Positions 7,977 through 45,613 of a DNA stretch of 56,077 nucleotides are shown here, piece by piece (position 1 is the first letter of the stretch; each line of letters opens with the position of its first letter). The position numbers and the translations under genes were made by a program. The notes below the pieces were generated by a model. That model did no database searches. It was not told the DNA's origin and saw nothing but the letters and a program-made list of their open reading frames with translations. This DNA comes from Promineifilum sp. (GTDB lineage Bacteria > Chloroflexota > Anaerolineae > Promineifilales > Promineifilaceae): assembly GCA_019695075.1 (NCBI GenBank), contig JAIBAS010000006.1, positions 1 to 56,077 of the forward strand, in the 5' to 3' direction.

Positions 7977-8031
7977 GGGTTCCTTTCGGCACGGGCGGGT
8001 CGATGGGACCCGCCCGTTCACCGCCACTGGG

Positions 8032-9075: not shown

Positions 9076-9088
9076 GTGATTCCTCCTG

Positions 9089-9859
9089 CTACCAAATCTT
9101 CCACGGCGCTTCGCCGCTGTCCCATAGCTTCTCCAGCACGTACTTGTCGCGCCGAGTGTCCATGCACTGCCAGAAGCCGTCGTGTTTGTAAGCCATCAGT
9201 TCGCCGTCGGCGGCCAGGCGCTCCAACGGCTCTTTTTCGAATTGGGTATCGTCGCCGTCGATGTAGTCGAACACCTGCGGCTCGGCGACAAAGAAGGCGC
9301 CGTTGATCCAGCCTTCGGCCGTCTGGGGCTTCTCGGTGAATTCGCGGATGCGGTCGCCGTCGAACTCCATGTGACCATAGCGGGCCGGCGGGCGCACGGC
9401 GGTCATGGTGATCAGCCGGCCGTGGGCGCGGTGGAAGGCCAGCAGCCGGCTCAGGTCAACGGTGGAAACGCCGTCGCCCCAGGTCAGCATGAAGGTCTTG
9501 TCGCCCATGTAGGGCTGGAGGCGCTTGATACGGCCGCCGGTCATGGTGTTCAGGCCGGTATCGATCAGCTGGATCGTCCAGTCCTGAATGCCGTCAGTGT
9601 CGTGCAGGTCAACGCGCCCGGCCTTCAGGTTGATGGTCAGATTGCTGTTGAGCGAGCAATAATCGACCATGTAGCGCTTGATGACTTCGCCCTTATAGCC
9701 CAAAGCGATGACGAAGTCGCGATAGCCGAAGCACGAATAATGCATCATGATGTGCCAGAGGATGGGGCGTCCGCCGATCTCGACCATGGGCTTGGGCTTG
9801 ATCTCGGTCTCTTCGGCCAGGCGCGTCCCATGCCCTCCGGCCAGAATGCCTACTTTCAT
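9089..9859 (-). CDS. rfbF: Glucose-1-phosphate cytidylyltransferase
   Basis: The enzyme makes CDP-glucose from CTP and glucose-1-phosphate, the first step of CDP-deoxysugar pathways. The nucleotidyltransferase signature GGHGTRLAEETEIKPKPMVEIGG starts at residue 8 and carries the RfbF-specific spacing. IGGRPILWHIMM, the GDGVS metal-binding segment and FWQCMDTRRDK near the end are characteristic of the cytidylyltransferase rather than the thymidylyl RmlA branch. At 256 aa it has the family's usual length. It heads the operon 9859 to 4913 (cytidylyltransferase, SDR, C-methyltransferase, two sulfotransferases). I found no box-type promoter in the 101-bp gap before it. Confidence 0.92.
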   Translation of the reverse strand: MKVGILAGGHGTRLAEETEIKPKPMVEIGGRPILWHIMMHYSCFGYRDFVIALGYKGEVIKRYMVDYCSLNSNLTINLKAGRVDLHDTDGIQDWTIQLIDTGLNTMTGGRIKRLQPYMGDKTFMLTWGDGVSTVDLSRLLAFHRAHGRLITMTAVRPPARYGHMEFDGDRIREFTEKPQTAEGWINGAFFVAEPQVFDYIDGDDTQFEKEPLERLAADGELMAYKHDGFWQCMDTRRDKYVLEKLWDSGEAPWKIW

Positions 9860-9960: not shown

Positions 9961-12900
9961 CTAGCGAATGATCATCGGCAACACCACGGCGTGCCCTTCG
10001 ACCGTGACCATCACCGTCTGGCTGCCCTGGCCCTCACCGTCGGAGGCGATGAAGGTGATAGCATACTCGCCGGTCTGCGAAATGTTGGGCCGCCACGTGA
10101 ACGTCCCCGTGCCGTTGCCCTTGTCCACGAACGTCGCCCCAGGGGGCAGGTCAGTGGCCGAGAGGGTCACCGGCTGTCCGGTGGGGTCGCTGGCATGCAC
10201 GTCGAAGGTCAGCACCTCGGTAATCTGCACGGTCTGGTCGCCAATCGCGTCGATGGTCGGCGGCGGGTTGTTGGAGAACGTCGCCCGGATGATCGTGTTT
10301 TTCTCAATGGTGATCGTCGCCGGGTTCTCCGCGCCGGTCAGGTCGCCGGACCAGCCGGTGAAGAAGTAGTTCTGCCCCGGCACGGCCGTCAGGGTTACCT
10401 GGTCGCCGCAGTAGTACTCGGCCAGATTCGGGGCGACGACGACATCGCCCGGGCCGGTTTTGTTGATCGTCAGCGTGTGGCGGTTCTGGGTGAACACGGC
10501 GGTGACATTCATGTTCCGCGTCACCGTCAGCAGCTCCACCTGGTTATTGCCGCTCAGATCGCCTTCCCAGTGGTCGAACGTCCAGCAGGAATTGGCCTGG
10601 GCCACCAGGGCTACCTGGTCGTTATAGACGTAGGTCGCCTGGTTGGGGTTGAGCGATACGGCGCCGCCCACGCCTTCCTTGCCGATGCTTGTCACCTTGA
10701 CATTGATCTTATATTGATCCTGGGTAAAGGTGGCGTTGACGACTGTATCGTTGGTGATGGTCAGCTGCGTCTCCAGGTCGGTGGAGGTCACGGCCCCGCT
10801 CCAGCCGGTGAAAGTCCAGCCGACGTTGGGTGTCGCCCGCAGGGTAACCACGTCGCCGTAGACGTAGGCGCTCTTCTGCGGCGTGACGGTGGCCGTGCCG
10901 CCCGTGCCGTTGCCGTTGTGGATGGTGTTCAGCGTCAGGGAATATGTGTTCTGCTCGAAGTGGGCGGTGACTGTCTGCGTGCTGAACATTGTCAGCGAGA
11001 CGGTGGGCGAGGTGCTGGTGACTGCGCCCGTCCAGCCGGTGAAAGTCCAGCCCGGTTGGGGCACGGCCGTCAGCTCGACGACATCACCATAGACGTAGGT
11101 GGGCTTGTCGGGGCTTTTTGCCACCGCGTTGGCGTCGCCGCCGATGCCGTCGTTGGCGATGTTGACGTTGAGCAGGTACTGATCCTGAGTGAAGGTGGCC
11201 ACAACGTTCTTCGGCCCGTCAATAGTGACAGACGTGTTGGGCGCGGACGCATTGATGTCGCCGCTCCAGCCGGCGAACGACCAGCCGGGGACGGTCGTCG
11301 CCGCCAGGGCAACGCTCTCGCCGCAGGCATAGGTGGTTTTGTCCGGGTCCTTGGTCACCGTGCCGGTGCCGACCACAGTGACATTGACGGCTATCGGATT
11401 GGCGTCTTCGGGTATGATCGGCAGGTCTGAGTTGAAGAAGTAGTCGACCACGGCGGTATGACCGGGGGCCGTGCCGCCCGTGGCCGCCGCGCCGGCAAAG
11501 ACACCGACCTGGATGGGGGTCATGGCCATTGTATAGGCCGCCTGCCCCTTCCATATGCCGTCCTGGTAGTAGTAGCGTGTGAAGCTGTCGCCAATGCGCC
11601 GGACGCGCAACAGGGTCGGCAGGGGTGTGCCGTCGGCAAAGGTGGTCGTGGCGCTCTTGACGGCCGTGCCGTTGCTGACGAAGCGGCTGAACATGATGTA
11701 GCCGGAGGCCGTGCGCTCAAAGGCGACGCGAATATAGGTATCGGCGTCTTCTTCGATGAGGATGCCCTGCATCTGGCCCAAAGCCGTTGGCAGCGACTCG
11801 AACTTGACCTCGACAGTGAAGTCATTGTTGTTGGCCGCCTGGACAATACGTGGCGGGCCGCCGGTCGTCCAATCGTGAGCGCCGCCGGCCGGAAAGCTCA
11901 TGGTCAGCGTCTCGCCCGACATCATCAGGGTCGTGTTGCCCTGCGGGTCGATCTCCGTCCACATCGAGTTCAGCTGGCAGGCATTGAAGTCGTCGGAGAG
12001 GATGTCGCCGAACTCGGTGGTCACAAAGGTATCGTCGTTGGTAGAGCCGACATTGCCCTGCTCGTCGGCGCCACGAATGCGGAAGTGATAGCGGGTGCTG
12101 GGCTGTAGGCCGCGGATCTCGACGGCGTGGGTAGTTTTCAGCGTCAGGTCTTCGACGGCTCCCAGCTCGTAGTTGGTGGTCTTGCCATATTCGACGCGAC
12201 TGGTAGCCGGTTCGTTGGTCGTCCAGTTGATGTTCGCGCCGTTGGGCAATGTCGTGACGACGACGTTGCTGATGACCGGGGCGGTCGTGTCGGGCGCGGC
12301 CGTCGTGAACTTGTAGCTCACCGGGTTCATGCAGTTGCCCGGCAGGTCACAAGCCTCGATGCGGACGTTGTACTCGGTCGAGAAGTCCAGGTTGCCGGGC
12401 GGGTCGTAGACCAGGCGGTAGTCGCCCATCACACCCTGAATGTCAGTACGGTCGGTGCGGTCTTCGCCATTGATGAAGACCTTAACCCTTGTCCAATCGA
12501 CGCCGAACTGGGTATCGCCCAGCCGGGCGACGATGGCCGACTTGATATCGACGTTGGTGGCGTTGGGCGCGGGCAGCTGGCCGCTGACGATGGGCGCTGT
12601 GGTGTCGGCCGTCGTGGCGGTGGTGCGTCGCAGGATGAACATGGGGCCAGGGTATTCGACGAAGTGCCCCGATCCGTTGACATACAGGAAGGTGATCCGG
12701 TTCAGACCGGGCACAAGGAAGTTCTTGTTGAATGGCTTGATACCCAAGTCCCAGTCCGGCGCGCCAACGGTGGCGGCAGGGCTGCCATTGATCGAGAAGT
12801 TCGGATTGCGCCAGTACGCGCCGACCAGGGTGGCGGTGGTGAAGTAGGAGGCCACGGTATCGGGCAGCGAGAAGTCATAGCTGACCGCGTCGGGGCGCTT

Positions 12901-13947
12901 GCCATCCATGTGCAGACCGTAGTCGGTGAAGGTGTGGATGGTGAAGGCGGTCACGGGCACATTGCGCATCAGCTTGAAATCGGCCGAGATGCCGCCCGCG
13001 CCCTCGCGCACGTTACCGGCGGCGTCGACGACGCGCAGCTTGAACTTGATCACCGGCTGGTTGGTGATGTGGCCGATGTTCCAGGTCACGGTGGCGACGC
13101 CATTCTTCGGCTTGGCCGTGCCGATGTGGTTGATCGTGCCGCCGGTCTGCTTCTCCTCCTTGCCGCCGGGCCACCAGTTATTGCGGCCCAGGTTGTGCCA
13201 GTCGCGGAAAACGCCGTCGTTGTCTTCGTCGTAGCCCTCATACCAGGCGTGGAACTCGACGTAGAGCGTGTCGGCGGAAACGTCGGCGGTCAGCGTCAGC
13301 TTGTCATTATTGACGGTCAACGTGCCGCCCGCGTCGGGGGACACCGCGCCGTTGTCGTCGGCGATGCCGGTGATCTGTCCGGTGGGTGGTTCCACGTCGC
13401 TGCCCGGGCCGGGCAACAGGGGGTTCTCGGCGTTGTGGTAGATGCGAATGCTGATGTCGTGAATGTGGGTCGGCCGTGCGGCCCAGAAGGTGATCGTGTT
13501 TGTGCCGGTCTGTAGATCGGCCTTATTGACCTCCGGGATCCACGGTGAACGGCTCCAGTCGTTGCCAACGGGGGAGGTATAGACCGTTGAGCCGTTGTTC
13601 AGCCGGAATTGGAGGCTACCCGGCGCGTAGGCGCGCCACAGGTCCAGGTAAAGCTCGACCTTGAGCGCGTTGCTGAAGTCATCGGGCAGCTGGAATGCCA
13701 GCGTCTTGGGGCACTTGTCAAGTGTCCAGGGTTCGACGTACCATGTGCCAGCGGGGTTTGTCGGCGTGCCGTCCTCGTTGCAGCCGCCGGTGAACTGGCT
13801 ATGGTTAACCCAATACTCCTTGTAGGTGACCTGGCTGCTGGCATTGAAGATGCCGGCCTTGGCTGGCGCGGGCAGGATCATCAGGAATCCGCCCACAATC
13901 CCCAGCGCCAGAATGAGAACGAGATGGTGTGTTTTGCTCCTAAACAT
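9961..13947 (-). CDS. Giant secreted modular protein, N-terminal type A (1328 aa)
   Basis: An exported protein. The signal peptide ends in APAKA before GIFNASS. The first about 450 mature residues form a domain shared with the protein at 19021 (VTYKEYW, HSQFTGGC, WYVEP, KCPK, NDWSRSPW) that I cannot assign. Next come a Big_5/SbsA-like Ig domain (VSGQLPAPNATNVD), an FN3-like domain (INWTTNEPATSRVEYG), a concanavalin/DUF1349-like domain (SDDFNACQL...DYFFNSDLPIIPED), five InlB-type repeats, a putative Ig domain (NNPPPTIDAIGDQTV...) and the tail VVLPMIIR. I chose ATG 13947 because GAGGGT precedes it and it starts the signal peptide directly; a longer frame exists. Its own box promoter lies far upstream at 14302, giving a leader of about 350 nt. 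Confidence 0.8.
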   Translation of the reverse strand: MFRSKTHHLVLILALGIVGGFLMILPAPAKAGIFNASSQVTYKEYWVNHSQFTGGCNEDGTPTNPAGTWYVEPWTLDKCPKTLAFQLPDDFSNALKVELYLDLWRAYAPGSLQFRLNNGSTVYTSPVGNDWSRSPWIPEVNKADLQTGTNTITFWAARPTHIHDISIRIYHNAENPLLPGPGSDVEPPTGQITGIADDNGAVSPDAGGTLTVNNDKLTLTADVSADTLYVEFHAWYEGYDEDNDGVFRDWHNLGRNNWWPGGKEEKQTGGTINHIGTAKPKNGVATVTWNIGHITNQPVIKFKLRVVDAAGNVREGAGGISADFKLMRNVPVTAFTIHTFTDYGLHMDGKRPDAVSYDFSLPDTVASYFTTATLVGAYWRNPNFSINGSPAATVGAPDWDLGIKPFNKNFLVPGLNRITFLYVNGSGHFVEYPGPMFILRRTTATTADTTAPIVSGQLPAPNATNVDIKSAIVARLGDTQFGVDWTRVKVFINGEDRTDRTDIQGVMGDYRLVYDPPGNLDFSTEYNVRIEACDLPGNCMNPVSYKFTTAAPDTTAPVISNVVVTTLPNGANINWTTNEPATSRVEYGKTTNYELGAVEDLTLKTTHAVEIRGLQPSTRYHFRIRGADEQGNVGSTNDDTFVTTEFGDILSDDFNACQLNSMWTEIDPQGNTTLMMSGETLTMSFPAGGAHDWTTGGPPRIVQAANNNDFTVEVKFESLPTALGQMQGILIEEDADTYIRVAFERTASGYIMFSRFVSNGTAVKSATTTFADGTPLPTLLRVRRIGDSFTRYYYQDGIWKGQAAYTMAMTPIQVGVFAGAAATGGTAPGHTAVVDYFFNSDLPIIPEDANPIAVNVTVVGTGTVTKDPDKTTYACGESVALAATTVPGWSFAGWSGDINASAPNTSVTIDGPKNVVATFTQDQYLLNVNIANDGIGGDANAVAKSPDKPTYVYGDVVELTAVPQPGWTFTGWTGAVTSTSPTVSLTMFSTQTVTAHFEQNTYSLTLNTIHNGNGTGGTATVTPQKSAYVYGDVVTLRATPNVGWTFTGWSGAVTSTDLETQLTITNDTVVNATFTQDQYKINVKVTSIGKEGVGGAVSLNPNQATYVYNDQVALVAQANSCWTFDHWEGDLSGNNQVELLTVTRNMNVTAVFTQNRHTLTINKTGPGDVVVAPNLAEYYCGDQVTLTAVPGQNYFFTGWSGDLTGAENPATITIEKNTIIRATFSNNPPPTIDAIGDQTVQITEVLTFDVHASDPTGQPVTLSATDLPPGATFVDKGNGTGTFTWRPNISQTGEYAITFIASDGEGQGSQTVMVTVEGHAVVLPMIIR

Positions 13948-14032
13948 TGTACCCTCATGCAGGTGATCTGTGATACGTTCTGAGACAGCTTGTTGCTCAC
14001 AAGCCACAAGCCAGGCTTATGGCAGTGCAGCC

Positions 14033-14074
14033 TTATGCGACTGAGAGCAGGCGCTTTTCGCGCATCCAATCCAT
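14033..14074 (-). CDS. Possible 13-aa leader peptide
   Basis: This ATG frame encodes MDWMREKRLLSVA and is preceded by AAGG five bases upstream. It sits between small hairpins in the long leader of the secreted-protein gene. It could be a leader peptide or chance; nothing else supports translation. Confidence 0.2.
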   Translation of the reverse strand: MDWMREKRLLSVA

Positions 14075-14301
14075 TGTGACCTTGTCACTGCGGTGTGCGC
14101 CGCAGGGCGGGCGAAATCCAGTACGAGCCGGCTGAGGTGCGCTGCTACCGTTAAGGGGGCGTCTCCGAAAGCGCTTCGGTGGACGAGTATGGCTCCGATA
14201 CAACATTTGTCGCGTCAGCCGGTCTATTGATAACAATTGGCGGCCATTGTCAGGTAGACAAGGCCTCGTCGGGCAAACTGGCCCGGCTCTATCTACGATA
14301 A

Positions 14302-14335
14302 AGGATAGTCATGCCGGCTTACGACGGCTCTTAAG
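14302..14335 (-). promoter_or_regulatory. Composite box promoter (site b)
   Basis: The minus strand reads CTTAAG, N6, CGTAAG, N10, TATCCT, one of three sites with a TATCCT -10. The distal half-site directly abuts the terminator hairpin of the upstream gene. Predicted start is near 14295, leaving an unusually long leader before 13947. Confidence 0.65.
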
Positions 14336-14340
14336 TGAAG

Positions 14341-14373
14341 GCGGCCGCCCCCAGGCTGATAGGGGGCGGCCGC
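14341..14373 (-). terminator. Hairpin terminator after the 14385-18890 gene
   Basis: A perfect 12-bp GC-only stem (14341-14352 with 14362-14373) and a 9-nt loop lie 11 nt past the stop codon. No T tract follows on the minus strand. Confidence 0.6.
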
Positions 14374-14384
14374 CGCGTGGCGGA

Positions 14385-17300
14385 CTAGCGGATGGCCATT
14401 GGCAGGAAGATGTCGAAGCTGGTCGGCTGGATGAAGGTCGCCGTGACGTTGTGTCGCCGGTTGACCACCAGCGTCTGGATAGGGTTGACGCCGTTCAGGT
14501 CAACGCTCCAGTTCTGGAAGCGCCAACCCGTGGCCGCCGCGGCCCGCAGCTGTACGCGCTGGCCGCAGGTATACGTTGGGCCGGCGGGGGTGGCGGTGAC
14601 CGTGCCTTGGCCCACCTTGGTCACGGTGATGGCGGGCGCGTTGGCGTCCTCCGGCGTGATGGGCGCGGTCTCGTTAAAGAAGAAGTCGAACAGCGCTGTA
14701 TGGCCGGGCTGGGGTGTGTTGCGCGGGGCGGTGCTGGCCACGAAGACGCCAACGGACTGGACGGGCAGACCGTAGTTGAACCCGCCCACGCCCGTCCACG
14801 GGCCGGTACGAATGGAACTATAGTAGAACTTCCACGCATCGCCGGTGCGGCGGATGAGCATGTATATCTCATCCTGCGGATCGACAACAGGCACTTGTAT
14901 GCGCACGCGCCCCTGGCCGTTGTTCACTGTGCCGACGAAGAACTGCACGCCCGGCGTCTCCTGTGTGCCGTCATAGAGAAAGTCGGCGCGGATGAAGTTC
15001 GTGGGCGATGCTTCGATTAGCACACCCTGCGTCTGGTAGGTTTCGGTCACGGGTGAGTCGATCTTCACAACCAGGGCGAAGTTGGTGTTGGCGATGGACT
15101 GCATCATCCGCGCGCTGTTGTTGCCGGTCTTCCAGATCTCGTAGTTGACCTCCGGCGGCACGGTGATCTTGAGTTGGGAGCCGGTCAACTCGTACTCGGC
15201 CTGGCCCAACGGATCGACCCACGTCCACAGGTCGCTGTTCAGCGCGCCGCAGCCGTCGAAGTCATCGGAGACAACGCCCTGCGCGTCGGTGAAGTTGGCG
15301 AAGATGGATTTGTCGCTATTGACGGTCAGGACGTAGGGGTTCTTATTGCTGACGAGATCGCCCGTCCAGCCGGCGAAGGCGTAGCCGGTGTCGGCCGTCG
15401 CCGTCAGGGTGATCTGTGTGCCGGCGGTGAATTGTGTGCCCTCCGGGTCGACGGCAACCGTGCCATGCGGCAGGCTATCCTCGCCGGGCGCAACGGCAAC
15501 GGCAACGTTGTAAATCGGGGCTACCTCGAACACGGCCGAGACGACCTTGTTGCCGTCCATCGTCAGCACGAGGGGGTTTGTTATCCCGGTGGCGTCGTTG
15601 CCCCAGGCGGAGAAGATGTAGCCCAGAGCCGGCTGGGCTGTCAGGGTCACCTGCTCGCCGGGCGCGTAGAGGGTGCGCACGGGGTTCACCTCGATTGTGC
15701 CATTGGTCGGCGGCACGATGGTCAGGCTATAGACACCCGCGGCGGCAAAGGTGGCCGTGATGGCCATGTTGCCGTTCACGGTGATGGTCTTGGGATTCTC
15801 GTTGCCGGTCACGTCGCCGCTCCAGCCGACAAACTCGGCCCCCGCCCCAGGGAAGGCAGTCAGCGTCAGCTGCTCGCCGGAGCCGTAAGTGGGTTTGTCG
15901 GGTGTCTTGACGACGACACCGCTGCCGACAGTGGTCACGGTGACGGTGTAGTTGGCGTCGGCGACGAAGGTGGCCGTGACGGTCGAGTTTTTGGTCATGA
16001 CCAGCGTGGCCGGGTTGGCGCTGCCGCTCAGGTCGCCGCCCCAGGCAACGAACCGGAAGCCGGAATTGGGCGTGGCTGTCAGGGTGACCTGCTCGCCGGC
16101 GTAATAGGCCGGTTTGGCCGGCACGGCGGCGATAGTGCCGTTGGCGTTGGGCGAGAGGGTCAGGGTAAAGACGTTCTCGGCGAAGGTCGCCGTGACGGTC
16201 TTGTCGCCATCCATGACCAAGGATTGCTGGAGGAGTGTGCCTGTCAGCGCCCCACCCCAGCCGATAAAGCTGGCCCCGGCCCCAGGAACGGCCGTCAGGG
16301 TGACGGTCTCGCCGTGGAAATAGGTCGCCTTGTCGGGGTTCTTGGTCACGCCGCCGGGGCCGTTGACGGTAATGGTCAACGTGCGCGCCGGGGCGGCGGC
16401 GAAGTTGCCGGCGATGGTCATGTTGCCGTTGACGACAACCGTCAGCGGGTTGGTTGTGCCGGTGGCGTCACCGCTCCAGCCGGTGAAGAGGTTGCCCACG
16501 GCCGGGGTAGCGGTCAATGTCACCGACTCGCCGGCGCTATAGGCGGGCTTGTCGGGCGACTTGGCCACCGCGCCCGCGCCGTTGGCGCTGACGGTCAGGG
16601 TGTACTGCACGTCGGTGACGAAGTGGGCCGTGACGTTCTTGGTGGCATTCATGACCAGCGCGCCGGGGTTGGCCGTGCCGGTCAGGTCGCCGCTCCAGTG
16701 GTCGAACTTGAAGCCGGTGTTGGGCACGGGCGTCAGTGTGACCGGCTCGTCGCAGGCGTAGTTTTCCTTGACCGGGTTGCGGGCCACAGAGCCGGCCCCA
16801 ACAGGGTCGATGGCGACGGTGAGCTTGCGGTCGTTGTCTTCCGGGACGATGGGGCTTTTGCTATTGAAGAAGTAGTCGATCAGGCCAACGGTGGCCGGGT
16901 CCTTGCTGGAGTTGGCGATGTACGGCCCGTAGGCGCTGACCACCATGTCGTGTTGGAAGCCGGCGGCGAAGGCCCAGGTCGTGCCGTTGGTGGAGTAGTA
17001 CAGGTTCCAGACGCTGCCGATGCGCTTGACGCGCAGATACATGGGGGGCGTGATCGTAAGCGTCAGGTCATTGATCCGCGTTGTGGGCGCGCCGGCCGTG
17101 AAGGTGAAAGCCTGCAAGCGATAGCTGTCGCCGTCGTGGAGGAAGTTGTAGCGCAGGAAGTTCTGCGCGTCGGCCTCGATGAGGATGCCCTGGGCCTGGT
17201 TTTTCTGGCCGAAGACCGATTCGAACTTGACGTCCAACTCGAAGTCTTCGTTCTTGGCGAACTGCATGACGCGCGGCGCGTTGGAGCCGCCGGTCCAGAT

Positions 17301-18890
17301 GTCGTGCCCCGTCCCGGCCGGAATGCTGATCTGCACCTGCGAACCGGTCATAGATAGCTCGGCGTCGCCCAGAGGATTCACGAAGGCCCACAACTGCGGG
17401 TTCAGCTGACAGCCGCTGAAGTCGTCGGAGATGGGCGTTTGGACGTTGGGATTGATCAGCAGCGCGGCCGCCGTCGTGTCGCCGAATATCTCCAGTGCCG
17501 CGGGGTTGGCGTTACCGCTGAGATCGCCCAGCCAGCCCTGGAAGGTGGAGCCGGCGGCCGGTGTCACGGTCAGGCTGACGTCTTCGCCAAAGCGATAGCT
17601 CTGCTTCTGGGGCGACACGTCGATTGTGCCCGTGCCGGTGCCGGTCGCGTTGACGGTCAGCGTCGGCTTGGGCTGCACGCTGGCGAGGTTGACGGTCACG
17701 TTGCCGAAGCGGGCGTCCACGTGGTGGGCCACCAGGAGGATGGCGCCGCTCTTCGGCTCGCCGTTGTTGCCCTGTTGCTCAAAATCCCAGGTGGCCGGCT
17801 CGGCCTGGCTGGCCTCCCAGACCTTGAAGCGGTAGGTGGCTGGCTTGGCGGAGTTGGCGCTCGAGGTGATACTGACTTTGAAGATGTAGGGGGTGTTCAG
17901 GCTGAGAGTGCGAGCGCTTTCACCCAGAAGGTTGCCGCGATGGCCCACCAGTTGCAGGCCCTCGCTGGGCGTCGCGCCGCCCTTCCAGCGGTACCAGGCG
18001 AGCGCGCCGAGACGCCGCCAGCCGGTGCGCGGTTGGGTGTCGTTCTCGGCCCAGTAGTGGCCCTGCCAGCGTACCATGACGCCGACGCCCGGCCCGTTGC
18101 TGGGGCCGGTGTAGCCGCTGGGGTCAACGGCCAGGATGGTGATGGGCACGGTGACAGTGTAGTCACGCCAGGACAGGTCGCCGATGGCCAACAGGCGGTC
18201 GAAGTCCAGAACCGTCGGCCGGGCCGCGCCGTTGTCGATGGTCCACTGTCCGTCCACCACCTGGGCGACGTCGGTCACTTTGGTCGCCGCGCCCCAGTTG
18301 ACGGTGATGTTCTGGGGTGGCGTCCAGGTCGGGCCGGCGCTGTAGTTGACGGTGACGACGGCCTGGCTGGACGTCAGGGCGCTGTCGAGAGCGGTAATGA
18401 CCACCTGGTTACTGCCCATCAGGAGGTCGGTGTAGTCCAGCTCGATGTTGAAGTCGCCGGCCTGGGCCAGGCGTAGGTTGTCTGGCCCGCGAGAGAGGTT
18501 CTGCGGCGGGCCGCCGTTGAGGGTGTAGGTCAGGCTGGTGATGGGCACGGCGCTGCTGACGTTGCCAAGGATGTTGACCCACTTCTGGGGATCGCCGCGC
18601 AGGCCGGCCGCCTGTGTCGCGCCATACCAGACGTTGATCACGGGCGCGTTGGGTGAATCTTGAAAGTCGAGGCCGAGATGGCCGGCCGCGCCGGATGGCG
18701 TCGTGACGAGGCCATCTGGTTGCCTGGGCGCGCCGCCTTCCAGGGGCGGCATGGCGCTCTCGTCGTCGCTGGGGGCCGTGACCGGAGTGACCGCGTTGGC
18801 AGCATCGGCCCAGGCCCCGACGCCGCTGGTCGTTAGAACGACCACCAGCAGCAGAGCCAGAAGCCAAAGCCCTCTTGCCTGTCTGTTCAT
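14385..18890 (-). CDS. Giant secreted modular protein, N-terminal type B (1501 aa)
   Basis: The protein starts MNRQARG, with a strong hydrophobic signal segment ending GAWA; GGAGAG lies upstream of ATG 18890, so I prefer this to a longer frame from 19016. An N-terminal block of about 360 residues (VWYGATQ, DPQKWVNI, GVMVRWQGH, RRLGALAWYRW, GAILLVAHH, FGNVTVN) is shared with the protein at 23982 and looks like a concanavalin-type lectin fold of unknown ligand. Then follow one InlB-type repeat, a DUF1349-like domain (SDDFSGCQL...DYFFNSKSPIVPED), seven more repeats, a second DUF1349-like domain (SDDFDGCGAL...FFNETAPITPED), a final Cys-containing repeat and the tail FLPMAIR. It probably acts in the extracellular matrix or as an adhesin. 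No promoter box was found upstream, so it may be read from the 19021 gene. Confidence 0.8.
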   Translation of the reverse strand: MNRQARGLWLLALLLVVVLTTSGVGAWADAANAVTPVTAPSDDESAMPPLEGGAPRQPDGLVTTPSGAAGHLGLDFQDSPNAPVINVWYGATQAAGLRGDPQKWVNILGNVSSAVPITSLTYTLNGGPPQNLSRGPDNLRLAQAGDFNIELDYTDLLMGSNQVVITALDSALTSSQAVVTVNYSAGPTWTPPQNITVNWGAATKVTDVAQVVDGQWTIDNGAARPTVLDFDRLLAIGDLSWRDYTVTVPITILAVDPSGYTGPSNGPGVGVMVRWQGHYWAENDTQPRTGWRRLGALAWYRWKGGATPSEGLQLVGHRGNLLGESARTLSLNTPYIFKVSITSSANSAKPATYRFKVWEASQAEPATWDFEQQGNNGEPKSGAILLVAHHVDARFGNVTVNLASVQPKPTLTVNATGTGTGTIDVSPQKQSYRFGEDVSLTVTPAAGSTFQGWLGDLSGNANPAALEIFGDTTAAALLINPNVQTPISDDFSGCQLNPQLWAFVNPLGDAELSMTGSQVQISIPAGTGHDIWTGGSNAPRVMQFAKNEDFELDVKFESVFGQKNQAQGILIEADAQNFLRYNFLHDGDSYRLQAFTFTAGAPTTRINDLTLTITPPMYLRVKRIGSVWNLYYSTNGTTWAFAAGFQHDMVVSAYGPYIANSSKDPATVGLIDYFFNSKSPIVPEDNDRKLTVAIDPVGAGSVARNPVKENYACDEPVTLTPVPNTGFKFDHWSGDLTGTANPGALVMNATKNVTAHFVTDVQYTLTVSANGAGAVAKSPDKPAYSAGESVTLTATPAVGNLFTGWSGDATGTTNPLTVVVNGNMTIAGNFAAAPARTLTITVNGPGGVTKNPDKATYFHGETVTLTAVPGAGASFIGWGGALTGTLLQQSLVMDGDKTVTATFAENVFTLTLSPNANGTIAAVPAKPAYYAGEQVTLTATPNSGFRFVAWGGDLSGSANPATLVMTKNSTVTATFVADANYTVTVTTVGSGVVVKTPDKPTYGSGEQLTLTAFPGAGAEFVGWSGDVTGNENPKTITVNGNMAITATFAAAGVYSLTIVPPTNGTIEVNPVRTLYAPGEQVTLTAQPALGYIFSAWGNDATGITNPLVLTMDGNKVVSAVFEVAPIYNVAVAVAPGEDSLPHGTVAVDPEGTQFTAGTQITLTATADTGYAFAGWTGDLVSNKNPYVLTVNSDKSIFANFTDAQGVVSDDFDGCGALNSDLWTWVDPLGQAEYELTGSQLKITVPPEVNYEIWKTGNNSARMMQSIANTNFALVVKIDSPVTETYQTQGVLIEASPTNFIRADFLYDGTQETPGVQFFVGTVNNGQGRVRIQVPVVDPQDEIYMLIRRTGDAWKFYYSSIRTGPWTGVGGFNYGLPVQSVGVFVASTAPRNTPQPGHTALFDFFFNETAPITPEDANAPAITVTKVGQGTVTATPAGPTYTCGQRVQLRAAAATGWRFQNWSVDLNGVNPIQTLVVNRRHNVTATFIQPTSFDIFLPMAIR

Positions 18891-18973
18891 GAAGTACTCT
18901 CCGTTGTGGCTAACATCGCCAAGAATGAAGAATGGGAGTGCCCTCCACGGCGCACTCCTGGCACTCGACGAGG

Positions 18974-19012
18974 CCATGATGGGGCGGCCGGCAGCCGGCT
19001 GCCCCATCATGG
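18974..19012 (-). terminator. Large hairpin after the 19021-23910 gene
   Basis: A perfect 12-bp stem (18974-18985 with 19001-19012) continues, after one mismatch, into five more base pairs. It lies 8 nt past the stop codon, without a T tract. It may act as a partial terminator or mRNA-stability hairpin inside the two-gene unit. Confidence 0.6.
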
Positions 19013-19020
19013 ACAATCGT

Positions 19021-22000
19021 CTATCTCAAGATAACTGGCACAACCAGCTTGTAGCCTTCGCTGCTGGCCACGAACTCGGCCGTCAGGTTGATATCTCCGG
19101 CCACAGTCACCGTGCGCACGGGGTTGGAGCCGGTGGCGTCGCCTGTCCAGCCGCGGAAGATCCAGCCGGCGGCCGGCACCGCCCGCAGCGTAACCTGCTG
19201 GCCACAGTAGTAGCCTTGGTTCGGGTTGCGCGTCACCGCGCCCGAGCCGGTGATGTCAACGTTGATCGTGTAACGGCTGTCCTCAGCGGTGATGGGTGAG
19301 GCAGTGTTAAAGAAGTAGTCAACCACGGCCGTATGGGTGGGCAGATTGCCCTTGAAGCGGGTATTGCCGGCGTAGACGCCGACCTGATTCACCTCTACGG
19401 CGAACTCAAAATCGACGCTCTTGACCCATTCGCCCGCCTGACCCATCTTGTACCATTGTTCCCACTTCGCGCCGGTGCGAACGATACGCATGTACATCGG
19501 CACGGAGGCACTGCTATCGGCGATGGGAACCACAGTCGTCTTGCGCGGCTTGGCCTGGTCGCCGTCAATGGTGACGGCGTAGACGTTGATTTCGTTAGCC
19601 TGGCGCGCATGGAACTCAAACCGCAGGAAGGTATCTTCGTCCTGCTGGATGAGGATGCCCTGCATGGCCAGGAAGCCCTCGATGGCGGAGTCGAACTTAG
19701 CCTCGACGGTGAAGTCGGTGTCGTTCGATGGTTGCATCAGGCGCGGGGCGTCGATACCGGTTGTCCAGACGTTGTGCGCCGGGGCCGTGGCGTCACCGCC
19801 GGGCACCGTGATGGCGATCTGGTCGCCGCGCAGCGACAATTGGACGTTATCCTCGTCCAGCGGGTTGACCCACGTCCAGCGGCTGTCCACCTCGCAGGCG
19901 GCGAAGTCGTCGGAGAAGATGCCCGACGAGGCGCTGGTGGAGAAGGACAGGTCGTCTGACTCGACGAGGTGACCGAAGCCGTCAACCGACGTTAGCTTGT
20001 AGTGGTAGAACGTCTCCGGCGACAGGCCGGTCAGGATCACTTCGTGTGCGGTTACCAGGGCATCCTTGGTCACTGTGCCGCCGAGGTAATCGACATCCTC
20101 GCCATAGTCAACCTGGCTGGTGCCGGGCACGTCCGTCGTCCAGGTGACGCGGGCGGTTGTGCCGCCGGGCAGGACTTCCACATCAGGGTTGCTGATCTCG
20201 ATGGGCGTTGTGTCGATGCCGAAGACGGCCTCGACTGTGAGGTTACCCTCCATGACGACGACGGCCGGGGCGACATCGTTGCTGATGTCGCCGGTCCAGA
20301 TGACGAACTCCATGCCGGAGTCGGGCACGGGCGTCAGGGTGACGATGTCGCCGTAGAGGTAGTACTCCTTGACCGGGGTCACATTGACGTGGCCGGCGCC
20401 CTGGGCGGTGGCCGTGACGGTATAGTGTTGCTGGGTGAACTCGGCGGTGATGCTCTTGTCGCTAACCATCTCCACCGTGGTCGTCAGTTCCGTGCCGGTC
20501 AGGTCGCCGCCCCAGCCGTCGAAGACCCAGCCGTTGGCGGGCGCGGCCTGCAAGGTCACCACCTGGCCGTGGCCGTAGGTCGGTTGGTCGGGGTCTTTGG
20601 TCACAACGCCGCCAACCTGGCCGACCTCGCTGTTGCTGACGATGTCCACGGTCAGGTCATACTGGTTCTGCACGAGCCTGGCGATGGCCACTACGTTCTG
20701 CGACATGGACAGGTGTAGCACCGGGTCAGTTCCACTGACGCCTTCGCCTTCCCAGCCGGTGAACGTCCAGCCGAGTTCGGGTGTCACGGTGATCGTCACT
20801 GCCTCGCCGTAGAGGTAGGTCGGCTGGACAGGCTCGACAGTAATCGTGCCGCCCAGGCCGACGCCTTCGGTGATGATCAGGGTGTCGAGCGTGTATTCGT
20901 CCTGGTCAAAGGTAGCCGTGATGTTCATGTTGCCGGTCACCGACACGACAGCCACGGGGTCTGTGCCGGTGTAGCCGCCCGACCAGCCGACGAAGCTCCA
21001 GCCGGGCGTCGGCGTGGCCGTCAGGGTGACGTTCGTTCCATAGACATAGCCGGCCGCGTCGGGGCTTTTTGTCACCGTGCCGCCGACGCCGTCGCCGTTG
21101 CTGGTCACGTTGACGTTGACCGTGTAGAGTGTGCTGTTGGTGAAGGTCGCGGTGACGTTTTCAGACTTGGTCAGGTTGATGGTCTTGACCAACTCGCCGC
21201 CGCTGAGCGCGCCGCTCCAGCCCTGGAAGGTCCAGTCGGGCGCGGGCGCGGCCGTCAGCGTGACCGTCTCATTGCAGCCATAGGATGCCTTGTCGGGGTC
21301 GCGCGTCACCGTGCCCTGGCCAACCTTGGTTACGTTCAGTTCGATGGGCGGGTCTTCCACCGCGATCGGGTCGCTCTGGCTGATGAAGTAGTCGATGACG
21401 TTGACGTGGGCCGGGTCGGTGCCGGTGTTGCCGACGTAGGGGCCGATCTGGCTCATAACCATCGCGCGCACGTAGTCGGTGGCCAGCGTCCAGTTCGTGC
21501 CGTCGGTCGAGTACTGGATGTTCCAGATGTCGCCGGTGCGGTTGACGCGCAGGTAGCTGGGGGCAGTGATGCCAACGGGCGTCGTGAAAACCACCGTGCT
21601 ATTGCCCGACACCGTGTTAGCAACAACCAGGCTAATGACGTTGGAGTTCTCGCTCTGGAAGCCGATGCGCAGATAGTTGGCCGCGTCCTGCTGGACAAGC
21701 AGACCAATCGACTTTGTCTTCTGTGCCAGCGGCTTTTCGAACTTCACTTTGACATCGAAATCCTGATTGGCAACATATTGCATCAGGCGGGGCGCATCGA
21801 GGTTGGAGCGCCACAGGTCGTGGCCCGTGCCGGCCGGCACGGCGATCTGCGCACCCGTGCCTGTCAGCACCATCGGCGCGTCGCCCAGCGGATTGAGGTA
21901 GGACCACACCGATGAATCCAGTTCGCAAGCGCTGAAGTCATCGGAGATGAGCGCTCCTGGCGTGCGCTTGGTCTTGAAGGTCAGGATGGTCGTCGTGCCG

Positions 22001-23910
22001 GCATTATTGTTGTAGTCGACCGAGGTCAGACGGTAGTAGTAGGTCGACTCCGTTTGCAGTCCGGGCAGCACCAGCGAGTGCTTGAGCACCAGGTTATCAT
22101 CGCTGACCAGGGGCTTCTCAAGCGCCTGGGTCAGGCCATACTCCACCTTGCTGGAGGCGGCCTCGTTTGTTGTCCAGGTGACGGTTGCCTGGGAGTCGGT
22201 CGTGACGACGTTGATGTTGGTGATCTGCGGCGGCGTCAGGTCGGGTGGCTCGGTGGTGAAGCTGAAGACGTCGGCCGTCGTCATGCAGTTGCCCAGCAGG
22301 TCGCATCCGTAGAAGGTCACCGGGATTTGCGTATTGGCCGGCAAGGGCTGCGTCGGCACATAGGATACGCTCAGGTTGTTGGCCGTGCCGCTGAAAACGG
22401 GCGTCACCTTGTTGCCGTTGACGCTCATGATGATGCTGTCGCGGTTTACACCGGTGCCGAGATCGCGAAACTGGATGGTGATGTTGGTGAACACATCCAC
22501 GTCAACGCTATTGGGAGCTGGCAGGCGACTGGCGACGTAGGGCGGCGCTATATCGGGCGCGTCAGTACTGTTGCCCTTGAGGACAATCATCGGGCCAGGC
22601 TCTTCGACGAACTGGCCGATGCCGGTAGTGTAGAAGTAGGCTAGGCTGTTGTTGCCGGGCAGCAACACGGTCTTGTTCAGTGTGCGGACGCCCAGTTCCC
22701 ATTCGTCCGCCGCGGCGCCTTCGCTAATGTAGGCCGGAGACGTGCCATTGAACGAGAATTTGGGCCGCTTCCAGTACATACCCAACAGGTAGGCGGCCGA
22801 GTAGTCGATCGGACTGTAGTCCGCGGGCAGCGGGAAGGTGACGGCGACCGTATCAGCCTGGGTGCCACTCATGTGCAGGCCGATATCCGTGAAGCCCGGG
22901 ATAGTATAGTAGACGGTCGGGTAGTAGCGCGCCAGCGTATACTCCGGCGTCGCCGGGCCTTCGCGGACGTTGCCGTCGGTGGCGACAATGCGGATCTTGA
23001 ACTTGACGCCGGGCTGATTGATGATGTAGCGCAGGTTCCAATCCTTGGATATCGTGCCGCCGGCGGCGAGCACGGCCGCGGTGCCGATGTGGTTGATCGT
23101 CCCACCATTCGGGTGAGTAGAGGCATCATAGCCACCAGGCCACCAGTTGTTGCGGCCGATGTTGTGCCAATCGCGGGAGACGCCGTCGTTGTCGTCGTCG
23201 TAACCGTCGTAGTAGGCATGGAACTCGACGTACTTGGCGCCGGAACCCGGCGCGAACTGGGCGCGGAGGGTCAATTGATCCTTGTTGACCAGCAGCAAGC
23301 CGCCGGTATTGGCGGGGACTTCGACGTTGTCATCCAATGACTTGATGATCGTCAGTTCGCCGTCGGGCGCAGTGGCGGGGGAGCCGTTGACGAGAAGCGG
23401 GTGCGTATCGTCGTAGTAGATACGGACGGCGATGTCGTGGATGTGGTAGAGACCGTGCTCGGCCCAGAACGTGAACGTCGTCGTCTGCTGCAAGCTGCTG
23501 AGCGGGATCTCGCCCACCCACGGCGAGCGGCTCCAGTCGGAGCCGGTGTCCGGGGTGTAGACCGTCGGGTTGTTGCCAACGCGAAAATGGGCGCTGTGGC
23601 TGTCGTAGTTGCGCCACAGGTCGAGATAGACCTCGGCTTTGAGGGCGCCGCTAAAGTTGTCCGGGATGTTGATCTGCATCATCTTCGGGCACTTGTTCAG
23701 CACGCCCGGCTCGACGTACCATGAGCCGTTCGGGTCTTCAGGCAACCCGGCGTCGGTGCAGCCACCCGTGAATTGCGAGTGGGGCATCCAGTATTCTTTG
23801 TAGGTTACCTCACCATTGGCAGTGAAGATACCCGCTTTTGCCTCAGGCGCGCGGCCCAGGCCGACCAATACTCCAATCAGGACTACCAGTACCATTACAT
23901 AACGCTTCAT
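19021..23910 (-). CDS. Giant secreted modular protein, N-terminal type A (1629 aa)
   Basis: The signal peptide ends in PEAKA before GIFTANG, matching the paralogue at 9961. Domains in order: the shared type A N-terminal region to about residue 480, a Big_5-like Ig domain (ASRLPAPNSVDVDV), FN3 (VTWTTNEAASSKVEYG), DUF1349-like domain 1 (SDDFSACEL...DYFISQSDPIAVED), five InlB-type repeats, a second FN3 (VTWTTDVPGTSQVDYG), DUF1349-like domain 2 (SDDFAACEV...DYFFNTASPITAED), a last Cys repeat and the tail VVPVILR. Paired cysteines recur: GGC/KCPK and CDLLGNC in the N-terminal part, and one Cys in each lectin-like domain with one in the following repeat. The start at 23910 has GAGGAAGAAG. It follows the 23982 gene by 71 nt and is probably co-transcribed with it. 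Confidence 0.82.
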   Translation of the reverse strand: MKRYVMVLVVLIGVLVGLGRAPEAKAGIFTANGEVTYKEYWMPHSQFTGGCTDAGLPEDPNGSWYVEPGVLNKCPKMMQINIPDNFSGALKAEVYLDLWRNYDSHSAHFRVGNNPTVYTPDTGSDWSRSPWVGEIPLSSLQQTTTFTFWAEHGLYHIHDIAVRIYYDDTHPLLVNGSPATAPDGELTIIKSLDDNVEVPANTGGLLLVNKDQLTLRAQFAPGSGAKYVEFHAYYDGYDDDNDGVSRDWHNIGRNNWWPGGYDASTHPNGGTINHIGTAAVLAAGGTISKDWNLRYIINQPGVKFKIRIVATDGNVREGPATPEYTLARYYPTVYYTIPGFTDIGLHMSGTQADTVAVTFPLPADYSPIDYSAAYLLGMYWKRPKFSFNGTSPAYISEGAAADEWELGVRTLNKTVLLPGNNSLAYFYTTGIGQFVEEPGPMIVLKGNSTDAPDIAPPYVASRLPAPNSVDVDVFTNITIQFRDLGTGVNRDSIIMSVNGNKVTPVFSGTANNLSVSYVPTQPLPANTQIPVTFYGCDLLGNCMTTADVFSFTTEPPDLTPPQITNINVVTTDSQATVTWTTNEAASSKVEYGLTQALEKPLVSDDNLVLKHSLVLPGLQTESTYYYRLTSVDYNNNAGTTTILTFKTKRTPGALISDDFSACELDSSVWSYLNPLGDAPMVLTGTGAQIAVPAGTGHDLWRSNLDAPRLMQYVANQDFDVKVKFEKPLAQKTKSIGLLVQQDAANYLRIGFQSENSNVISLVVANTVSGNSTVVFTTPVGITAPSYLRVNRTGDIWNIQYSTDGTNWTLATDYVRAMVMSQIGPYVGNTGTDPAHVNVIDYFISQSDPIAVEDPPIELNVTKVGQGTVTRDPDKASYGCNETVTLTAAPAPDWTFQGWSGALSGGELVKTINLTKSENVTATFTNSTLYTVNVNVTSNGDGVGGTVTKSPDAAGYVYGTNVTLTATPTPGWSFVGWSGGYTGTDPVAVVSVTGNMNITATFDQDEYTLDTLIITEGVGLGGTITVEPVQPTYLYGEAVTITVTPELGWTFTGWEGEGVSGTDPVLHLSMSQNVVAIARLVQNQYDLTVDIVSNSEVGQVGGVVTKDPDQPTYGHGQVVTLQAAPANGWVFDGWGGDLTGTELTTTVEMVSDKSITAEFTQQHYTVTATAQGAGHVNVTPVKEYYLYGDIVTLTPVPDSGMEFVIWTGDISNDVAPAVVVMEGNLTVEAVFGIDTTPIEISNPDVEVLPGGTTARVTWTTDVPGTSQVDYGEDVDYLGGTVTKDALVTAHEVILTGLSPETFYHYKLTSVDGFGHLVESDDLSFSTSASSGIFSDDFAACEVDSRWTWVNPLDEDNVQLSLRGDQIAITVPGGDATAPAHNVWTTGIDAPRLMQPSNDTDFTVEAKFDSAIEGFLAMQGILIQQDEDTFLRFEFHARQANEINVYAVTIDGDQAKPRKTTVVPIADSSASVPMYMRIVRTGAKWEQWYKMGQAGEWVKSVDFEFAVEVNQVGVYAGNTRFKGNLPTHTAVVDYFFNTASPITAEDSRYTINVDITGSGAVTRNPNQGYYCGQQVTLRAVPAAGWIFRGWTGDATGSNPVRTVTVAGDINLTAEFVASSEGYKLVVPVILR

Positions 23911-23981
23911 CTTCTTCCTCGTCTATGATTGCCTCATCGTCGTTTCCGCTACGTTCAGTTGTTGATTGGCCGGGCGGGCTT

Positions 23982-26483
23982 CTATTTGTCGACGGTCATA
24001 GGCAGAAATGTTTGATAGCTTCCGCGCGCAAATGTGGCCGTGACGGTGTGATTACGCGTCACAGTCAGCTGTTGTGAAAGCGCGCTACCGGTAAGATCGC
24101 CGCTCCAGCCAACAAAACGCCATTGTACTGCCGGCACAGCGGTCAATGTGACCTTCTCATTACAGGCATATGTTTGTTTGGCCGGGTTTAGCGTTACATT
24201 ACCCTGACCAACTTTGTTGACAGTGATAGTGAAATTGCCGGGTGTATGGCCATCTTCAGGCACGATGGGGGCGGCGCTGTTGAAGAAGTAGTCGACGATG
24301 GCCGTGTGGGCCGGGGCCGGGCGGAACGGTGGTGTGCCGTGGTTGGCCCCGTAGACGCCCGTTTTGGTGACGTTCAGGGTATAGGCGAAGCTGCCGCCAG
24401 AGACCCAGTCCGTGCCGTTATCGGAATAGGAGTAGCTCCAGGACGCGCCCACGCGCGTGACGCGGAGGTAGGGCGGCGTGCTCGACAGGGGGCGGTTATA
24501 GATCAGCGCCTTGGGATTGCCATCCAGGAACCGCGCCGCGAACAGTTGGATGGAGTTGCCGTCGTGGTAGACCTCGAAGCGCAGGAAGTTATTGGCGTCC
24601 TGTTCCACCAACAGGCCTTGCATCTGGTAGCGCTGGCTGACGACGGACTCGAACTTGGCGATGATCTCGAAGTCGGTGTTCTGCGTCGGTTGCATCACCC
24701 GTACTGACAGATTGCCGCCCGTCCAGATGTTGTGCGAGACGTTGGCCGGCACGTTGAGCAACAATTGGGTGCCGTTGACGGTTTGGCTACCCTGGCCGGT
24801 GGGGTTGATGAATGTCCACAGGCTCGTGTTCAGGGCACAACTGTTGAAGTCGTCGGACACAGGCGAGTTGGCATTGGCGGCGATGAAGTTGGCGACGATG
24901 GTCTTCGTCCGGTTCATGACGACGAGGGCGGGGTTGTCGGAAGACACCAGGTCGCCCGTCCAGCCGGCAAAGATAAAGCCGGTGTTGGGTCGCGGGGTCA
25001 GCGCGACTTGCTCGCCGTAGTTGTACTTGCGCTTGTCGGGGGCAACCGTGACCGAGCCACCGCCGCTGGAGGAGATATTGAGCTTGATCTCCTCGGCCGA
25101 CGGCTGGAAGTTCGCGCCCACGGCGACATCCGAGGTGATGTCGAAGACGATAGGATTCTCGTTGCCGGAGAAGTCGCCCGTCCAGTTGCTCAGGGCGTAG
25201 CCGGTCGCGCCCTGCGCCCGAATCTCGACGCGCTCGCCGTAGGTATAGGTGGTCTTGGAAGGCGTGACGATGATCTGGCCGTTGGCCGGCGGGACGACGT
25301 TGAGCGTGAAAGTCTGGGCCGTAATCGGCTTGACGGTGACATTGCCGAAACTGACCATTGCCTGGTGGGCAACGAGCAGAATGGAGCCGGTGCTCGGCTC
25401 GCCAATGTTGCCGGGCGCGGATAGATACCATTCGGGCGGTTCGGGATCAGACGCGCGCCAGAACTTGAAGCGGTAGTTGGACGGCGCGCCGGCCAGGGGC
25501 GACGTCTGGACGCTCATCTTGAAGATATAGGGGGTGCTTAGCTCGATGGTGCGGTCGGTGCGCTTATCGACGATGTTGCTCGCGCCGCCGCCGTTGCCGC
25601 GCAACTCGAAAGCAGTGTCGCCATTGGGCGCCCAGCGATACCAGGCCAGAGCCCCGAAATGACGCCAGTAGTCGCGCGGTTGGGACGTGCCTTCATGCCC
25701 CTGCCAGCGCACGATGATGCCGACGCCCGCGCCGTTGCTGGGCGGTCCCCACTCGGCGGTGTTGAGCGAATTGACCGTCACGGGCACAGTGACCTCGTAA
25801 TCGGTCCAGCTCATATCGCCGATGGCCATCAGGCGGTCGTAGCCGGGGACAACGTTTTCCAGACGGCCGCCGAGGATGGCCCAGCGACCATCGACGACCT
25901 GCGCGCCGGCCTGCACACTGCCGAGCGCGCTCCAGTTGGCGGTGTAGGGCATGGGCCAGGTGTTGCCGGCGTCGTAGTTGACGGTGACCGTCTTGGTCAC
26001 CTGGGTCACGCCGTCATTGGCCTTGATGAGGACGGTGTTGGCCCCCTCGACCAGTTCGGTGATGGCCAGCTCGATGTTGAAATCGCCCGCGCCATACAAT
26101 CGCTCGCCGGTGGGGCCAAGGGACAAAGTCTGGTCCGGCCCGCCGTTGAGGGAGTACTTCAGCGAGGTCGTGCCCGTGGCCGTGCCCGGGATGTTGACCC
26201 ACTGCTGCGGGTTACCCAGCTGGCCGAAGTTCTGTGTCGTGCCATACCAGACGTCAATCGCCGGAGCATCGGACGAGGCAGGCGCAGCGGCCGGGGCTTC
26301 GTAGCTGATGATCGGGTAGGGATATGGCGCGCCATCCTCAACGGGCGGCACTTCCGTATCTGCAATGAGACCTTGGTCGTTGGGGCTGGCCGGCACAGGT
26401 GTATCGGCGCGGAGAAACGCCGGGTGTACCAGTAGCACCAGCAAGGCCATGACGGCAAGCAGGATAAAACGCGAGTATCTCAT
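23982..26483 (-). CDS. Secreted modular protein, N-terminal type B (833 aa)
   Basis: The smallest member of the secreted set. The signal peptide spans about 1-26 (hydrophobic, ending FLRA). The type B N-terminal lectin-like block (VWYGTTQ, GNPQQWVNI, GIIVRWQGH, RHFGALAWYRW, GSILLVAHQ) matches the protein at 14385. It is followed by two InlB-type repeats, a DUF1349-like domain (SDDFNSCAL...DYFFNSAAPIVPED), a final repeat with Cys (TYACNE) and the tail FLPMTVDK, which departs from the usual terminal Arg. The start ATG 26483 has AAGGAG about 10 nt upstream. It is the first gene of the B-A-B-A series and has a box promoter at 26512 with a leader of about 20 nt. Confidence 0.8.
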   Translation of the reverse strand: MRYSRFILLAVMALLVLLVHPAFLRADTPVPASPNDQGLIADTEVPPVEDGAPYPYPIISYEAPAAAPASSDAPAIDVWYGTTQNFGQLGNPQQWVNIPGTATGTTSLKYSLNGGPDQTLSLGPTGERLYGAGDFNIELAITELVEGANTVLIKANDGVTQVTKTVTVNYDAGNTWPMPYTANWSALGSVQAGAQVVDGRWAILGGRLENVVPGYDRLMAIGDMSWTDYEVTVPVTVNSLNTAEWGPPSNGAGVGIIVRWQGHEGTSQPRDYWRHFGALAWYRWAPNGDTAFELRGNGGGASNIVDKRTDRTIELSTPYIFKMSVQTSPLAGAPSNYRFKFWRASDPEPPEWYLSAPGNIGEPSTGSILLVAHQAMVSFGNVTVKPITAQTFTLNVVPPANGQIIVTPSKTTYTYGERVEIRAQGATGYALSNWTGDFSGNENPIVFDITSDVAVGANFQPSAEEIKLNISSSGGGSVTVAPDKRKYNYGEQVALTPRPNTGFIFAGWTGDLVSSDNPALVVMNRTKTIVANFIAANANSPVSDDFNSCALNTSLWTFINPTGQGSQTVNGTQLLLNVPANVSHNIWTGGNLSVRVMQPTQNTDFEIIAKFESVVSQRYQMQGLLVEQDANNFLRFEVYHDGNSIQLFAARFLDGNPKALIYNRPLSSTPPYLRVTRVGASWSYSYSDNGTDWVSGGSFAYTLNVTKTGVYGANHGTPPFRPAPAHTAIVDYFFNSAAPIVPEDGHTPGNFTITVNKVGQGNVTLNPAKQTYACNEKVTLTAVPAVQWRFVGWSGDLTGSALSQQLTVTRNHTVTATFARGSYQTFLPMTVDK

Positions 26484-28457: not shown

Positions 28458-28491
28458 ATTAAAGCAAAGTCTACTTACAGGTGGGCTTAAG
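28458..28491 (-). promoter_or_regulatory. Composite box promoter (site d)
   Basis: The minus strand reads CTTAAG, N6, TGTAAG, N10, TTTAAT. The distal half-site overlaps the TAA stop codon (28487-28489) of the upstream glycosyltransferase, so the box is embedded at the end of that gene. Predicted start is near 28451, about 160 nt before the flippase start codon. Confidence 0.5.
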
Positions 28492-29644: not shown

Positions 29645-29685
29645 GTTTTCGGTTCCTCTCGTTTCGGGCGGGTTGCCAGATAGTG

Positions 29686-29719
29686 AGGATAAGTGGACGA
29701 CGTTACGGCGCGCCTTACA
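29686..29719 (-). promoter_or_regulatory. Composite box promoter (site k)
   Basis: The minus strand reads TGTAAG, N6, CGTAAC, N10, TATCCT. Predicted start is near 29679, about 35 nt before the GT4 ATG at 29644. A possible imperfect hairpin terminator of the preceding GT2 gene (arms 29748-29754 and 29787-29793) lies just upstream. Confidence 0.6.
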
Positions 29720-29792
29720 AGGCCGTGGCGCACTGGCCGGGCGGGCGGGCCTGATGCCTCAGTCCAACAGGCAATCGATTATGGGGTCAGGC

Positions 29793-30665: not shown

Positions 30666-30704
30666 CGTCTCTCCTGATCGGTGGGGTGCGGTGGTGGCAG
30701 CGCC

Positions 30705-31832: not shown

Positions 31833-31853
31833 GTCTATAGCTCCTATTGGGCG

Positions 31854-45611: not shown

Positions 45612-45613
45612 CT

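Follow-up and report, generated by a model that had tools for sequence, protein, structure and literature searches.

The window analyzed here, a 56,077-nucleotide stretch of DNA from a Promineifilum-type Chloroflexota MAG (a filamentous sludge bacterium), contains four large genes on the minus strand, which in transcription order are B1 (23982), A1 (19021), B2 (14385), and A2 (9961). The initial annotation had described two N-terminal types alternating across these genes; all four genes lie where it placed them and carry the motifs that it quoted, and the two types are referred to here as A and B heads. Signal-peptide-like starts were seen in all four.

B1 (positions 23982 to 26483; 833 aa) encodes a signal peptide, a B head (25323 to 26408; sequence match, fold model, and PDB search), two InlB repeats, a DUF1349/GH43_C2 concanavalin-like module (24261 to 24866), one further repeat, and the tail YQTFLPMTVDK. 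A1 (19021 to 23910; 1629 aa) encodes an A head (22552 to 23910 including the signal peptide; sequence match, fold model, and PDB search), a Big_5 domain, an fn3-like stretch, a concanavalin-like module (21364 to 21963), five repeats, a second fn3-like stretch, a second concanavalin-like module (19291 to 19932), one repeat, and the tail KLVVPVILR. B2 (14385 to 18890; ~1501 aa from its likely start) has a signal peptide, a B head (17688 to 18788; sequence match), one repeat, a concanavalin-like module (16845 to 17438), seven repeats, a second concanavalin-like module (14658 to 15281), one repeat, and the tail FDIFLPMAIR, and A2 (9961 to 13947; ~1328 aa from its likely start) has a signal peptide, an A head (12619 to 13932; sequence match), a Big_5 domain, an fn3-like stretch, a concanavalin-like module (11413 to 12015), five repeats, a Big_9 domain, and the tail AVVLPMIIR. 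The open reading frames listed for B2 (14385 to 19016; 1543 aa, TTG start) and A2 (9961 to 14007; 1348 aa, GTG start) are over-extended, with signal-peptide starts near 18890 (MNRQARGLWLLALLLVVV) and 13947 (MFRSKTHHLVLILALGIVGG), respectively.

The four genes occupy one slot of an exopolysaccharide (EPS) cluster, bordered upstream by a Wzx-type flippase (PF13440; 26769 to 28289, minus strand) and downstream by a minus-strand cassette (6741 to 9859) of a nucleotidyltransferase (9089 to 9859), an epimerase (8032 to 9075), and a C-methyltransferase (6741 to 8027). The EPS cluster (28487 to 48171, minus strand) contains glycosyltransferases, sulfotransferases (30705, 31854, 32760, and 37784), Wzc/Wzz-like, sulfatase, Wzy-like, and MBOAT genes, and a sugar-phosphate transferase. 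A fifth secreted repeat protein (789 to 4502, minus strand; seven repeats, a concanavalin-like module, one repeat, and the tail FTISLPVIIR) has neither an A nor a B head; counterparts matching at 57 to 58% flank the slot on this side in G001 and G006 too. Two neighboring beta-helix and PKD proteins (48506 to 51097 and 51156 to 53135) are encoded on the plus strand, opposite to the cluster; the one at 48506 to 51097 carries a Laminin_G_3 module and resembles, at 32 to 41%, the C-terminal region of the Acidimicrobiia fusions described below. Rfam and tRNA scans of the window gave no match.

Head families, shared modules, and tail

The heads of B1 and B2 share 51% identity over 358 aa (E = 1e-92), those of A1 and A2 share 51% over ~446 aa (E = 3e-137), and no N-terminal match was found between A and B heads. 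Judged by sequence, A1/A2 and B1/B2 are true paralogue pairs. Only the downstream modules are common to the A and B genes, namely, PF18998 repeats and DUF1349/GH43_C2 concanavalin-like modules, with additional Big_5 and fn3-like stretches (Pfam) in the A genes. No further copy of either head was found in the same genome.

All four genes score 112 to 344 bits for PF18998 (Divergent InlB B-repeat; cut-off, 23.6), and arrays of these PF18998/TIGR02543 (List_Bact_rpt) repeats, in up to nine stretches, make up the arms of the proteins. DUF1349 (PF07081; cut-off, 32.4) is matched above the cut-off in A1 (65.0) and B2 (59.5) and below it in B1 (20.2) and A2 (26.9); the B1 module exceeds the GH43_C2 (PF17851) cut-off (25.9 versus 22.7). 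Each protein has one or two such modules, some below the Pfam cut-off, here not joined to a catalytic domain. InlB-repeat surface proteins have the same PF18998 arms; those of the window are distinguished by two heads without a Pfam family. A Pfam scan of 12 A heads gave a single chance match of one member and no family, and one of 29 B heads gave no whole-head family, with weak and mostly Ig-like matches (best E, 3e-4) and weak matches to Glucodextran_B in 6 of the 29 (best E, 0.004). In the A head, cysteines are conserved, as is a DxDNDG-like loop that could bind calcium. B heads also occur in another setting, in proteins of 470 to 570 aa with neither InlB repeats nor the LP tail (L065, L066, L067, L069, L070, and L071), some of which end in a membrane stretch (G036 and G011).

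Listeria internalins have LRR and LPXTG; the window proteins have neither (Pfam/NCBIfam; C-termini FLPMTVDK, VVPVILR, FLPMAIR, and VLPMIIR) and no membrane stretch. Their tail instead follows the pattern [hydrophobic]-[LMIVF]-P-[three mostly hydrophobic], then 0 to 6 residues. Across the window (789 to 4502, 9961 to 14007, 14385 to 19016, 19021 to 23910, and 23982 to 26483) and loci L045 to L068, the pattern was found in 30 of the 40 A/B proteins whose C-terminus is complete versus 5 of 230 other open reading frames of the same loci (p = 4e-26), and most of those lacking it are B proteins with other architectures. In 400 kb sampled from G001, the pattern occurred five times versus ~3 expected, and three of these matches look real; because the sample is small and near expectation, no general claim is made for the tail. 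To our knowledge, it is unlike any known LPXTG or PEP-CTERM signal, and it may be an undescribed Chloroflexota sorting signal. The open papers found on Promineifilum EPS or on a Chloroflexi C-terminal sorting signal contain nothing on these proteins.

Conservation and origin of the B-A-B-A order

The initial annotation had proposed looking for the same pairing in related genomes, and the alternation is indeed kept throughout the genus. B1-A1-B2-A2, with its domain architecture, is kept in G001, G003, and G006 (all three of the relatives with an unbroken locus), and fragments in G005 (split contigs) and G007 (B1-A1, then a short B2) are compatible with it. Across the genus, B1 consists of a B head, two repeats, a concanavalin-like module, and one repeat; A1 of an A head, a concanavalin-like module, five repeats, a concanavalin-like module, and one repeat; B2 of a B head, one repeat, a concanavalin-like module, seven repeats, a concanavalin-like module, and one repeat (short in G007, G002, and G004); and A2 of an A head, a concanavalin-like module, and five repeats. 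Trees gave four clean orthologue clades (support, 100/99 for A1, 98/97 for A2, 100/99 for B1, and 100/99 for B2), so the copies are older than the genus radiation. The subsequent expansion of repeats that had been proposed was not borne out, since no orthologue varies in repeat number or domain order within the genus, which leaves no repeat expansion after the genus split; lineage-specific expansion was rejected on this constancy. A recent tandem duplication was also rejected, as DNA copies of the heads are only 74 to 85% alike over short stretches and had already separated before the genus arose.

Full-length A and B proteins from different species that retain them are mostly 54 to 68% identical, like the flippase and GT4a (47 to 78%), and the cassette at 6741 to 9859 is 88 to 95% identical across the genus, with its neighbors at 50 to 65%. 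By these identities, the surface proteins and polymer-specific genes evolve fast and the sugar supply stays fixed, and the conserved cassette suggests a conserved C-methylated sugar in the polymer. The same cassette was also seen beside B in G022, G025, G105, and G011.

Across the genus, and also in G022 and G025, the slot has the same flippase and cassette borders, and its gene content varies among relatives. In G001, G003, G005, and G006, a sulfotransferase-like gene of ~330 to 350 aa (GTGRSGTT loop) lies between B2 and A2, where the window has a 377-bp gap without it (14008 to 14384, minus strand). This gene is 81 to 87% conserved (L046:4198-5253, L048:6845-7867, L049:14345-15421, and L056:4911-5867). 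The slot of the congeners G002 and G004 is B1-B2 with no A, and since the RpoB tree nests both inside the genus, A was lost there. In G025, a family relative, the slot contains a single B. G009 shows a B-A pair. The slot of G022, another family relative, is fragmented. Contig C191 breaks off in a B gene that directly follows Wzx. Contig C562 begins within a repeat protein that has a concanavalin-like module and the LP tail; A comes next, and its reading frame runs on without a break into C20, with which C562 shares an overlap of 25 exact bases. Beyond the rest of A, C20 carries B and the nucleotidyltransferase. With C191 and C562 joined by architecture and slot position (no overlap), the slot reads as B-A-B with no second A, and the architectures of its B genes are like B1 (two repeats before the concanavalin-like module) and like B2 (one repeat).

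The best A tree places the A1/A2 split after G022 diverged; grouping the G022 A head with A1 was rejected (AU p = 0.0085), and grouping it with A2 was borderline (p = 0.054). For B, placing the split before G022 (C191 with B1, C20/C15 with B2) improved lnL by 8 over a within-genus split (AU, 0.47 versus 0.11, the latter not rejected), and the older split agrees with the repeat pattern beside the B head and with slot position. The concanavalin-like modules formed six position-specific clades in which sisterhood of A1 with A2 or of B1 with B2 was neither shown nor rejected; dating the pair duplication by these modules was abandoned for lack of resolution, each position being its own clade.

Stepwise growth fits these comparisons better than one duplication of a B-A pair, with support that is not decisive. 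The slot would first have held one B and then B-A-B, between the flippase and the sugar-nucleotide cassette, and a second A would have been copied into its last place before the genus radiated. Of the pair duplication originally proposed, the paralogue pairs and the conserved alternation stand, and a single duplication is not the best-fitting history given B-A-B in G022 and the AU tests.

A single tandem duplication in the genus ancestor, with the second B of G022 arising independently, appears rather unlikely. It would account for the equal divergence of A1/A2 and B1/B2 (51% each) and for the B-A pair of G009, and one clade of genus B1 and B2 was not rejected by AU tests (p = 0.395 in one and p = 0.11 in a later one); however, the B-A-B of G022 lies in the same slot and its B architectures match those of B1 and of B2, the older B split has the better likelihood, and the downstream modules give no pair sisterhood. 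It is still more improbable that B-A-B-A is older than the G022 split, with the second A lost in G022 and this history hidden from the A tree by later A1-A2 gene conversion within the genus. The early split preferred by the B tree is compatible with such a history, as is the fact that loss of A happened at least once (G002/G004), but the AU results for the G022 A head speak against it, and A1 and A2, only 51% alike, carry no trace of recent conversion.

Pairing, folds, and likely function of A and B

B is present in all 13 genomes found with A. Among 118 relatives, 8 have both, 10 have B only, and none has A only (Fisher p = 6e-8, relatedness not corrected). Wherever the contig is readable, the gene directly upstream of A is a B gene (or a fitting end of one), except where the sulfotransferase-like gene intervenes between B2 and A2 in four genomes. 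Four Acidimicrobiia, from another phylum, encode both heads in one protein of 2,768 to 2,842 aa (L108:9899-18205, L109:9893-18346, L110:9899-18208, and L112:9899-18427), with A N-terminal, three concanavalin-like modules, and B further on. These fusion proteins have no LP tail, their genes have glycosyltransferase genes nearby, and G418, G420, and G421 have a stand-alone B gene in addition.

The earlier suggestion that the paired heads work together thus gains from the genomes with A, the adjacency, and the fusions, and loses from the occurrence of B without A in 10 of the 18 relatives with B; heads unpaired in most relatives, which had been named as evidence against pairing, were found for B and not for A. 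G002 and G004 kept both B genes after the loss of A. Because A is confined to genomes with B and B often occurs alone, the dependence appears to be of A on B, not the reverse. Tentatively, A and B might be two parts of one polymer-holding device (A working only with B, the two being fused in Acidimicrobiia), encoded with its exopolysaccharide and, in Chloroflexota, held at the surface by an undescribed C-terminal signal.

The model of the B head (pLDDT, 90) has an Ig-like module with a concanavalin/galectin-like jelly roll behind it. Its best PDB matches were galactocerebrosidase, GH43 C-terminal domains, the lectins VIP36 and Emp47p, and galectin-8, with TM-scores to the target of 0.63 to 0.67 for the galectin-8 domain and 0.47 to 0.52 for VIP36; TM-scores to multi-domain targets were low, and the galactocerebrosidase and GH43 matches probably reflect their sandwich domains. 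Eukaryotic L-type lectins and galectins (VIP36, Emp47p, and galectin-8) share the jelly-roll fold of the B head (TM to target, 0.5 to 0.67) at 7 to 13% identity. The A head model, of middling confidence (pLDDT, 75), has beta-sandwich modules whose PDB matches, with low TM-scores, are scattered over many multi-domain proteins. Many proteins without sugar-binding activity likewise have concanavalin-like or Ig folds.

Vibrio cholerae RbmA, RbmC, and Bap1 are biofilm matrix proteins encoded beside an EPS cluster. They offer an analogy, as secreted beta-sandwich/lectin-like proteins that are encoded with EPS genes and tie polymer to cells; they differ in phylum and architecture, and no sequence relation to the window proteins was found. 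RbmA (4kkp) matched the A head weakly (rank 50; TM, 0.15 to 0.25).

On balance (probability, roughly 0.55), we consider the A and B proteins an old, stable set of secreted, multi-domain surface or matrix proteins, putatively polymer-binding, of a sulfated-exopolysaccharide locus, with the B-A-B-A order grown stepwise. Their likeliest function would be to bind the cluster's own polymer and hold it at the cell surface. The proteins would be exported together with the polymer made by the same cluster, by a route that we infer; heads and concanavalin-like modules would bind the polymer, repeat arms would span it, and the tail would hold the proteins at the cell or sheath, thereby tying the sulfated polymer to the filament. 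The initial annotation had offered partner fibers or binding proteins of the sulfated polymer; the latter reading fits the locus and the modeled folds, and nothing favors fibers in particular.

The proteins could instead be adhesins or receptors for outside targets (cells, particles, or foreign polymers), located at the EPS locus because both are fast-changing surface traits. We regard this as a serious rival, less probable than a role with the cluster's own polymer: a repeat arm with a lectin-like head is a common adhesin plan, and A and B diverge as fast as the flippase and GT4a and faster than the cassette, but the place of the slot next to Wzx and the sugar-nucleotide cassette does not change from genus to genus, and glycosyltransferase genes are also found near the A-B fusion of the other phylum. 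A role as enzymes trimming or modifying the polymer is very improbable, for although glycoside hydrolases and lyases often contain concanavalin-like modules and B resembles accessory beta-sandwich domains of galactocerebrosidase and GH43, with GH43_C2 matched, no catalytic domain was found in the four proteins (Pfam and NCBIfam), and the matched family is the C-terminal, noncatalytic one.

Promineifilum-type Chloroflexota grow as filaments in sludge communities, and the phylum is believed to contribute to the cohesion of flocs and granules; we know of few genes for how they hold their matrix. Chloroflexi have been linked with EPS and aggregation in general (PMC9942424). The locus brings to light two head families that no Pfam model covers, as well as a conserved tail at the C-terminus, possibly a sorting signal, and the A-B fusion in another phylum predicts joint action of both heads. 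It also offers conserved candidate matrix proteins tied to a sulfated-polymer cluster.
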